Of a stretch of DNA of 64,000 bases, positions 9,440-58,945 are shown in pieces. The notes beneath the pieces are model-generated. The model searched no databases, was not told the DNA's origin, and saw only the letters and a list, made by a program, of their open reading frames with translations. Position 1 is the first letter of the stretch. Each line of letters begins with the position of its first letter. Both the position numbers and the translations under genes were made by a program. Source of the DNA: Ruminococcus sp. (GTDB lineage Bacteria > Bacillota > Clostridia > Oscillospirales > Ruminococcaceae); contig JAJBTZ010000085.1 in NCBI GenBank assembly GCA_020860605.1, positions 1 through 64,000 of the forward strand, read 5' to 3'.

Positions 9440-9474
9440 GAAACTCCCCAAGCCTTGCGGTTTGGGGAGCTCTA
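9440..9474 (-). terminator. Terminator after the type III toxin gene
   Basis: Stem CTCCCCAA/TTGGGGAG with an inner CC/GG, then TTT on the minus strand. It lies about 57 bp past the toxin stop. Confidence 0.75.
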
Positions 9475-9530
9475 TTATCACAAAGTTTTCATCTATTGCC
9501 ACAGGCTCATATTCCCATAATATCATGAAA

Positions 9531-9983
9531 TTACGGCAGGGTCGAAAATTGATATCTTCTTGCGAATTCTCTCGGGTGAAGAGGCTTTTTGCCAGTGACA
9601 TGGTTTATGTAGGTGTCGACGTAGCTTACGGCGGATTCGACTATTGTCGGGAGATTCCGTTTCATCTCAGCATATTCGTCCTGATCGACAATTGCGTTTT
9701 CGTCGTCAAAATAGCTCGTATCTTTAATAATGACAATCTTCGAGAAGTCGAGACCTGAACGGGAGCGCTTTGAGCGTTCGGTGTTTGTGAAGAGAAATGC
9801 ATTTTTGTGGTGAATGTCCGAACGGAACGGGACACAGATGAAGTAATCATCGTGAGTATCTATGAGAAGGCAGGTATAGGGCCTGCCATGCTTGTGCATG
9901 AGCTCAGGAAACCTCTCCGGCGGATAGTCCTCCGTGAATTTTGGGGACAGCAAGTATAAATCAGCGTCAAATTCCAACTCCAT
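9531..9983 (-). CDS. Type III toxin-antitoxin toxin, TenpN/CptN-like endoribonuclease
   Basis: 150 residues from ATG (a GTG one codon earlier is also possible). The motif set matches the ToxN/CptN/TenpN superfamily of type III toxins: RPY (34-36), VPFRS (51-55) with downstream His59-Lys60, GLDFSK (77-82), a Gln-Asp-Glu segment near 101-103 and the C-terminal RYQFSTL (143-149). These enzymes cut RNA, including their own repeat RNA, and are held inactive by the resulting RNA pseudoknots. The locus fits: immediately upstream, in order away from the gene, lie an intrinsic terminator, two 52-53-nt repeats and a strong promoter. The ribosome site (GTAGGTG) is weak and close, consistent with low toxin translation. 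The exact subfamily is uncertain. Confidence 0.82.
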   Translation of the reverse strand: MELEFDADLYLLSPKFTEDYPPERFPELMHKHGRPYTCLLIDTHDDYFICVPFRSDIHHKNAFLFTNTERSKRSRSGLDFSKIVIIKDTSYFDDENAIVDQDEYAEMKRNLPTIVESAVSYVDTYINHVTGKKPLHPREFARRYQFSTLP

Positions 9984-9990
9984 CACCTAC

Positions 9991-10022
9991 AAAAAACGAG
10001 GATGCCCAAACGGCCATCCTCG
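9991..10022 (-). terminator. Attenuating terminator between antitoxin RNA and toxin gene
   Basis: Stem CGAGGATG/CATCCTCG with a CC/GG inner pair and six T on the minus strand, ending 7 nt before the toxin start codon. Type III systems use such a leaky terminator to make much antitoxin RNA and little toxin mRNA. Confidence 0.92.
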
Positions 10023-10031
10023 CGGATTTTC

Positions 10032-10136
10032 TTCGCTCGGTCAGTTTTATTTTACCGATGTGTCAGAACCGTCACACATCATCTTCGCACGGTCAGTTTT
10101 TATTTTACCGACGAGTCGGAACCGTCACTCGTCATC
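10032..10136 (-). repeat. Two tandem antitoxin repeats
   Basis: Units 10136-10084 (53 nt) and 10083-10032 (52 nt) share GTGACGGTTC, ATCGGTAAAATA or TCGGTAAAATA, and ACTGACCG. They differ mostly in paired stem positions and one A in the linker. Confidence 0.9.
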
Positions 10137-10171
10137 GTTTAGCGAAGCAGAGGAATCAATCCTCTACTTAT

Positions 10172-10199
10172 ATTATACACGAAATTCCGGGAAATGCAA
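10172..10199 (-). promoter_or_regulatory. Promoter of the type III toxin-antitoxin locus
   Basis: -35 TTGCAT, 16-bp spacer, perfect -10 TATAAT on the minus strand. The transcript would start close to 10165. Confidence 0.82.
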
Positions 10200-22352: not shown

Positions 22353-22592
22353 AGTGAATAAAAGCGTTGAGCGGAAAGAGTAGCGAAGCTGAGCCCGCAA
22401 AGAGAGGAGACGGCGGTGGAAAGTCTCCCAGGAAGGTTTTGTGAAGTGCATCCGTGAGCTTGGGAGCGGAAGCTGAGTATGTTCCCACGTATTGCTGCGT
22501 TAAAGCGTCTAAAGTTACAAATCGGAGTGGAACCGCGATTTTACACCGCCTCCCGTTTAGCGTTATGCTATTCGGCAGGCGGTTTTTGTTTT
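22353..22592 (+). promoter_or_regulatory. T-box leader, probable tRNA-Cys sensor
   Basis: The T-box sequence GAGTGGAACCGCG (22525-22537) contains the TGGAACC bulge that pairs with the tRNA acceptor end. Stem I has the AGAGAGGAGAC base, and the specifier loop GAAGTGCATCCGTGAGC gives TGC (Cys) at 22447-22449. The terminator ACCGCCT/AGGCGGT plus T run lies at 22545-22592. Low charged tRNA-Cys would let transcription go on into cysE-cysS. Confidence 0.93.
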
Positions 22593-58689: not shown

Positions 58690-58939
58690 GATAAAAGAGA
58701 CGAAGTCATAATATCTCCGCGGTACCACTCTTTTTGATTCGATTTTGTAAAAATCAAACCCGCTCATTTCGCGTCAACCAACGCGACCGCCCTTTAACGG
58801 GAGCACCCGTTCAAACCTACTCGTTGCCTTTCAGCCGAAAGCTCAGGGATGAGTTATACCAAAGACCCGTTACCACCTTTCACCATCCGGCAGCTCTCTT
58901 AAAACGGAAGAGGTTGGCTTTGTTCCCGTCAACGCCTTT
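58690..58939 (-). promoter_or_regulatory. T-box leader, probable tRNA-Leu sensor
   Basis: The T-box sequence AGTGGTACCGCGG lies at 58717-58730 on the minus strand. Stem I contains AGAGAGC and GGTGAAAGG. The specifier loop ATAACTCATCCCTGAGC gives CTC (Leu) at 58853-58851. The terminator ends at TCTCTTTT near 58690, paired with AAAAGAG ahead of the T-box sequence. It should switch on the whole leuA-leuB operon when charged tRNA-Leu is low. Confidence 0.93.
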
Positions 58940-58945
58940 TCAATT

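Follow-up and report, generated by a model that had tools for sequence, protein, structure and literature searches.

The analysed window is a 64,000-nucleotide stretch of a Ruminococcus sp. contig. On its minus strand lie, in order of reading, a promoter, a leader hairpin, two tandem RNA repeats, an intrinsic terminator and a small protein gene. An earlier note had described this arrangement as a complete type III toxin-antitoxin locus, and every element that it listed (TATAAT, two tandem repeats, a terminator with T6 and a small protein on one strand) was found. The promoter, read from the sequence, spans 10172–10199 and comprises TTGCAT (10199–10194), a 16-nt spacer and TATAAT (10177–10172). 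The TATAAT position is matched in close relatives, some of which have the consensus TTGACA as the −35 element (locus L004). The −35 element of the window is weak, thus the promoter was not listed by a consensus scan. Directly 3′ of the promoter, RNA folding predicts a 5′ leader hairpin, AAGTAGAGGA / TCCTCTGCTT (10145–10169), at −14.3 kcal/mol, a value equalled by 1 of 200 shuffles. This hairpin is retained in most relatives despite differing sequences.

The two repeats, unit 1 (53 nt, 10083–10135) and unit 2 (52 nt, 10031–10082), are preceded by CTTCGCT (10141–10147), the 5′ half of a closing stem whose 3′ half, AGCGAAG (10037–10031), constitutes the last 7 nt of unit 2. TRF assigned the repeats a period of 53, 2.0 copies and a score of 163, and the units score 84.0 and 79.3 bits, respectively, with the covariance model. 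The terminator between the antitoxin and the toxin (9991–10022) was identified from sequence and fold; its stem, CGAGGATG...CATCCTCG (10022–9997), is followed by T6 (9996–9991), the fold amounts to −18.7 kcal/mol, and relatives have equivalents. It is absent from the consensus scan output because its loop exceeds 8 nt. The whole transcript region folds with z = −4.3. The toxin gene (9531–9983) begins with ATG, with GTG 9986 and TTG 9977 as alternative starts, and encodes 150 amino acids that contain the RPY, PFRS, GLDFSK and FSTL motifs pointed out earlier.

The toxin matches the NCBIfam TenpIN model NF047358 with 158.6 bits (cut-off 90, E 1e-46), the sole NCBIfam report up to E 1, such that CptIN (NF047359) is not matched. 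No Pfam family was matched, including ToxN_toxin (PF13958), and thus membership of ToxIN is not supported. The proposed search against the type III toxin families therefore strongly supports the toxin-antitoxin reading and allows the family to be named as TenpIN. PADLOC returned one weak, unrelated match. Sequence searches of solved structures, with the single sequence and with a profile, identified no type III toxin and no TenpN chain. An AlphaFold model built from eight sequences (pLDDT 82) was compared with solved structures using VIA-align, and the top five matches were all five solved type III toxins: ToxN of B. thuringiensis (Z score of 10.2), AbiQ (9.7), CptN (8.9), ToxN of E. coli (8.8) and ToxN of Pectobacterium (8.8), corresponding to entries 4ato, 4glk, 4rmo, 7d8o and 2xd0. 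The next match was MazF, with a Z score of 6.2. Foldseek alone ranked CptN first with a weak E-value of 0.015. The predicted model thus places the toxin in the type III toxin fold.

The repeat units are predicted to fold as H-type pseudoknots, and covariation supports this fold. Stem S1 comprises 7 bp (10133–10127/10116–10110 in unit 1 and 10080–10074/10063–10057 in unit 2) and stem S2, joined through an A-rich linker, comprises 5 bp (10124–10120/10094–10090 and 10071–10067/10042–10038). The loop CGGT had been proposed to pair with ACCG; this pairing is borne out and extends to CGGTT/GACCG. Likewise, the change of S1 from GACGAGT/ACTCGTC to GATGTGT/ACACATC between the two units indeed comprises two double changes that keep the pairing. 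The covariation is wider than had been claimed, as S2 and the 7-bp closing stem co-vary as well. In a set of 19 distinct units drawn from 12 loci, all 228 cells of the 12 pairs are paired. Three S1 pairs and one S2 pair changed on both sides, against 0–1 for slid partners, and the covariation score was reached by none of 500 shuffles. Adding three units from toxinless bacterial loci yielded a second S2 pair with changes on both sides (slid controls 0–2), and here too no shuffle of 500 attained the score. For each window unit alone, no dinucleotide shuffle of 300 attained the pseudoknot score. Unit 1 is identical in sequence to that of L009, and unit 2 to those of L008, L010 and L011, although synonymous sites of the neighbouring toxin gene are saturated. 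A GAAG-AT boundary is repeated across many TenpI arrays and may mark the cutting site.

The closing match CTTCGCT/AGCGAAG, to which the earlier note had drawn attention, co-varies across bacterial and phage loci. In most bacterial loci it is invariant or shows wobble changes only, and this near-invariance by itself proves little. The phage loci described below have closing stems that are rewritten on both sides, as CTGTCC/GGACAG and CTACCC/GGGTAG, and further as CTTCACCA/TGGTGAAG, GGATAGTTTC/GAAGCTATCC and TATCAATCA/TGATTGGTA; one phage locus, L118, has no clear closing stem. When the 3′ sides were re-dealt among loci, the observed sum was reached in 0 of 400 trials with all loci and in 0 of 2000 with the phages alone. 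This constitutes strong rather than exact support for the stem, because the loci are not all independent.

The unit length of 52–53 nt had been taken as a sign of a variant RNA class, against 36–45 nt in well-known types. Reviewed unit lengths are 34–36 nt for ToxI and antiQ and 45 nt for CptI (PMC5086642, PMC4627078). The length argument fails, since TenpI units elsewhere measure 45–57 nt: in front of other TenpN genes, TRF gives periods of 45 nt (L019), 50 nt (a Vibrio harveyi plasmid), 51 nt (L023), 52 nt (L020), 53 nt (Fusobacterium vincentii) and 57 nt (Leptotrichia). Three such arrays upstream of TenpN, at L020:1330–1433, L023:267–419 and L030:1043–1148, consist of units that match the 52 positions of Rfam RF02925, "6A RNA", end to end with 58–68 bits (gathering threshold 41.2). 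In an unbiased scan of 398 genomes with this model, the sole match above the cut-off was the L023 array beside TenpN. The RF02925 model draws the hairpin (S1) only, without a pseudoknot, and the Rfam listing says just "Gene; sRNA". By sequence correspondence, 6A RNA is probably a TenpIN antitoxin, its model missing the pseudoknot. The window units do not match RF02925 even at E 10, and the other Rfam matches in the region are chance only. Elsewhere in the window, two T-box leaders (RF00230) are found at 22358–22556 on the plus strand (112.7 bits) and at 58693–58941 on the minus strand (110.4 bits).

Genomes with a TenpIN toxin above the cut-off are sparse: 5 out of 198 in the family, 7 out of 394 in the order and 2 out of 398 in the phylum. 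Units like those of the window likewise occur in 7 of the 394 genomes of the order. Exactly two units lie upstream of the gene in all 12 close toxin-bearing loci (L003, L004, L008–L014, L016, L017 and the phage locus L119), and the terminator is present in all 11 bacterial ones. Close relatives of the gene lacking upstream repeats, which the earlier note had named as evidence against its reading, were searched for and none was found. The reverse, repeats without the gene, exists. Two units in genome G401 (L049, 1501–1604) and one in G510 (L048, 1501–1553) are followed by a terminator, with no TenpN nearby or in a family search of the whole genomes, and L049 has one S2 pair with both sides altered. 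Within the genus, the locus lies 3′ of hom in the window and in L008; in G044, G148, G485 and G512, no such locus follows hom. Other genomes with a 95–97% identical hom have it next to rplL (L009, L010) or to different genes. A search for insertion boundaries found that cassette neighbourhoods differ among close relatives; the surrounding gene order is rearranged too, so that these differences may reflect either movement of the cassette by itself or wider rearrangement. A small RelE/YafQ-like toxin gene lies directly downstream of the same-genus TenpIN locus, at L008:5896–6174.

The description of the locus as complete holds for the presence of all elements and does not hold for the toxin, which is not full length and lacks a conserved C-terminal helix. 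An in-frame stop ends it at STLP, eight residues short of the end of close relatives, which at 88–91% identity terminate in STLPYFHD(I/V)MGI or nearly so. The former C-terminal codons persist 3′ of the stop (9507–9530) and read FHDIMGI followed by a stop. An aromatic pair (YF or similar) follows STL in nearly all of 26 aligned TenpN-like proteins spanning Firmicutes, Fusobacteria and Proteobacteria. In a model of the intact relative L008 from the same alignment, C-terminal residues 148–155 form a helix with pLDDT above 90, and in the window toxin model the last 20 residues drop to pLDDT 54–59. By sequence and model, the window toxin may be weak or dead; toxicity of this copy is probably reduced or lost, with the RNA part intact. 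The truncation weakens the claim of an active copy and leaves the TenpIN assignment unaffected.

It is possible, as a tentative reading, that the locus is decaying, the toxin having died by truncation and the RNA persisting either as a leftover or in an anti-addiction role towards incoming TenpIN elements. The early stop deprives the toxin of a helix that all intact relatives conserve, and the toxinless arrays of L048 and L049 occur in two related genomes, as such decay would have it. However, constraint on the remainder of the gene is not relaxed: dN/dS relative to the relatives is ~ 0.02–0.04 with saturated dS, which indicates strong purifying selection on the gene apart from its stop. Therefore, loss, if any, must have happened very recently, or else the stop is tolerated or an assembly error; the latter may be the case, as the window copy is known from one sequence of a draft genome.

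A second, unclassified type III-like locus is present in the same genome (L002, genome G000, contig C75, 2951–3292), and its group also includes L021 and L024–L029. The toxins of this group score ~ 42 bits with TenpIN and reach at most E 7e-5 with CptIN, both below the cut-off; profile-to-profile alignment with TenpN gives 98%. In their RNA, a stem CUCCG/CGGGG carries a loop that pairs with downstream sequence, and the L002 units contain inserted hairpins. S1 is near-constant, with one pair in which U-G alternates with C-A, and S2 is hypervariable and co-varies: across 12 units, 70 of the 72 S2 pairs form, versus 59 when re-dealt, and none of 5000 re-dealings reached the observed value. Another genome contains a ToxN-like locus (L022:270–400) with 36-nt repeats in 3.4 copies and no Rfam match.

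Units like those of the window are also carried by phages. Searching with an exact degenerate pattern that covers 31 positions of the unit core identified them in 23 IMG/VR contigs, 22 of which have no detectable toxin; the TenpN profile found a toxin in L119 alone, a whole TenpIN with two units. A protein scan of the viral contigs missed the phage copies, because the others have no toxin and that of L119 is too divergent for peptide patterns. L125 has two units followed by an apparent decayed toxin start, and L118 and L126 have toxinless two-unit arrays, one unit of L118 being partial. In L104, L105, L106, L108, L111 and L122, a single unit is flanked by tRNA-Phe and tRNA-Lys genes of the same strand; the arrays comprise as many as 22 tRNAs and, in L104 and L106, a tmRNA. 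In L110, L123 and L114, the unit adjoins other tRNAs. Examples of these units are L106:3432–3484, L108:5302–5354 and L114:11368–11419. PHROGs identified terminase and portal proteins on L104, L105, L118 and L126, and the tested L114 protein matches a phage family of unknown function. A weaker relative of the unit occurs in INPHARED record MT835481. A wider 6A-like DNA pattern in viral contigs is short enough for chance matches.

The fold is kept in the phage units, where 99.5% of cells pair, five S1 pairs changed on both sides and the covariation was matched by 0 of 500 shuffles. It is rather probable that gut-type phages carry full, toxinless TenpI units, often single in tRNA arrays, as RNA counter-defence against TenpIN. 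The units would act as decoys that keep TenpN neutralised once the host array is shut off. That tRNA-processing enzymes, and not the toxin, release the units from the tRNA arrays is a guess. A precedent exists in pseudo-ToxI of phage PhiTE, an RNA mimic of a type III antitoxin by which the phage suppresses abortive infection; wild-type PhiTE carries 1.5 pseudo-ToxI repeats and no full antitoxin RNA, and escape arises via expansion or recombination (PMC3475682). In contrast, the wild phages described here already carry full, structurally maintained units, often single and within tRNA arrays, of the TenpI type.

Alternatively, the phage units could be functionless, passive remnants of captured TenpIN loci, in keeping with the whole TenpIN of L119, the apparent decayed toxin start of L125 and the partial unit of L118. 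This is unlikely, because the phage S1 forms GACGTGT and GTTGTGT lie outside the bacterial set yet are fully paired, the rewritten closing stems pair, and the unit holds the same tRNA-array position in divergent phages. Moreover, ten whole phage records have no TenpIN match, although the records may be fragments and a toxin elsewhere in the phage is possible. It is highly improbable that the repeats are a cis-regulatory leader of the downstream gene, attenuator or riboswitch-like, rather than a trans-acting antitoxin: the structured RNA does lie immediately upstream of a terminator and gene, but it consists of tandem identical units with a TenpIN toxin downstream, and both phage tRNA arrays and solo bacterial loci contain the unit by itself, with no toxin after it.

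The locus is thus very probably a chromosomal type III toxin-antitoxin locus of the TenpIN family, whose TenpI RNA of two units is distinct and highly conserved. Sequence and covariation indicate that one promoter reads through the two pseudoknot units, the attenuating terminator and tenpN, and that CTTCGCT/AGCGAAG closes the array. By analogy with ToxIN and CptIN, the terminator would keep the RNA in excess of the toxin mRNA, and TenpN, an endoribonuclease with a MazF-like fold, would cut the precursor near GAAGAU into 52–53-nt units, which would remain on the toxin and occlude its active site. On the same analogy, transcription shut-off or RNA decay upon phage infection would free the toxin, leading to RNA cutting and abortion of the infection. 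The single toxinless phage units, most simply explained as decoys, would neutralise TenpN during infection.

The locus shares with Photorhabdus luminescens TenpIN_Pl (NF047358) the toxin family, above the cut-off, the order of repeats, terminator and toxin and, in the window's relatives, the C-terminal YFH..LGI motif. It differs from TenpIN_Pl by its own repeat sequence, which Rfam does not reach, two units per close locus, the closing stem and the truncated toxin of the window. With ToxIN/AbiQ and CptIN, it shares the locus plan, an H-type pseudoknot with an A-rich loop and the RNase toxin fold class (PMC5086642, PMC4627078), whereas their units are 34–36 nt (ToxI, antiQ) or 45 nt (CptI) and the toxin has no sequence match to theirs. 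The locus is a variant within the known TenpIN kind, itself of moderate interest, which is raised by the phage units.

Of the three type III families, TenpIN has, to our knowledge, received the least attention. The covariation-supported pseudoknot and closing stem provide a concrete RNA model to probe, and tying 6A RNA to TenpIN gives that Rfam family a likely function. The toxinless TenpI units of phages make a natural anti-toxin-antitoxin RNA directly testable, and they raise the possibility of counter-defence elements among the other unannotated RNAs of such phage arrays.
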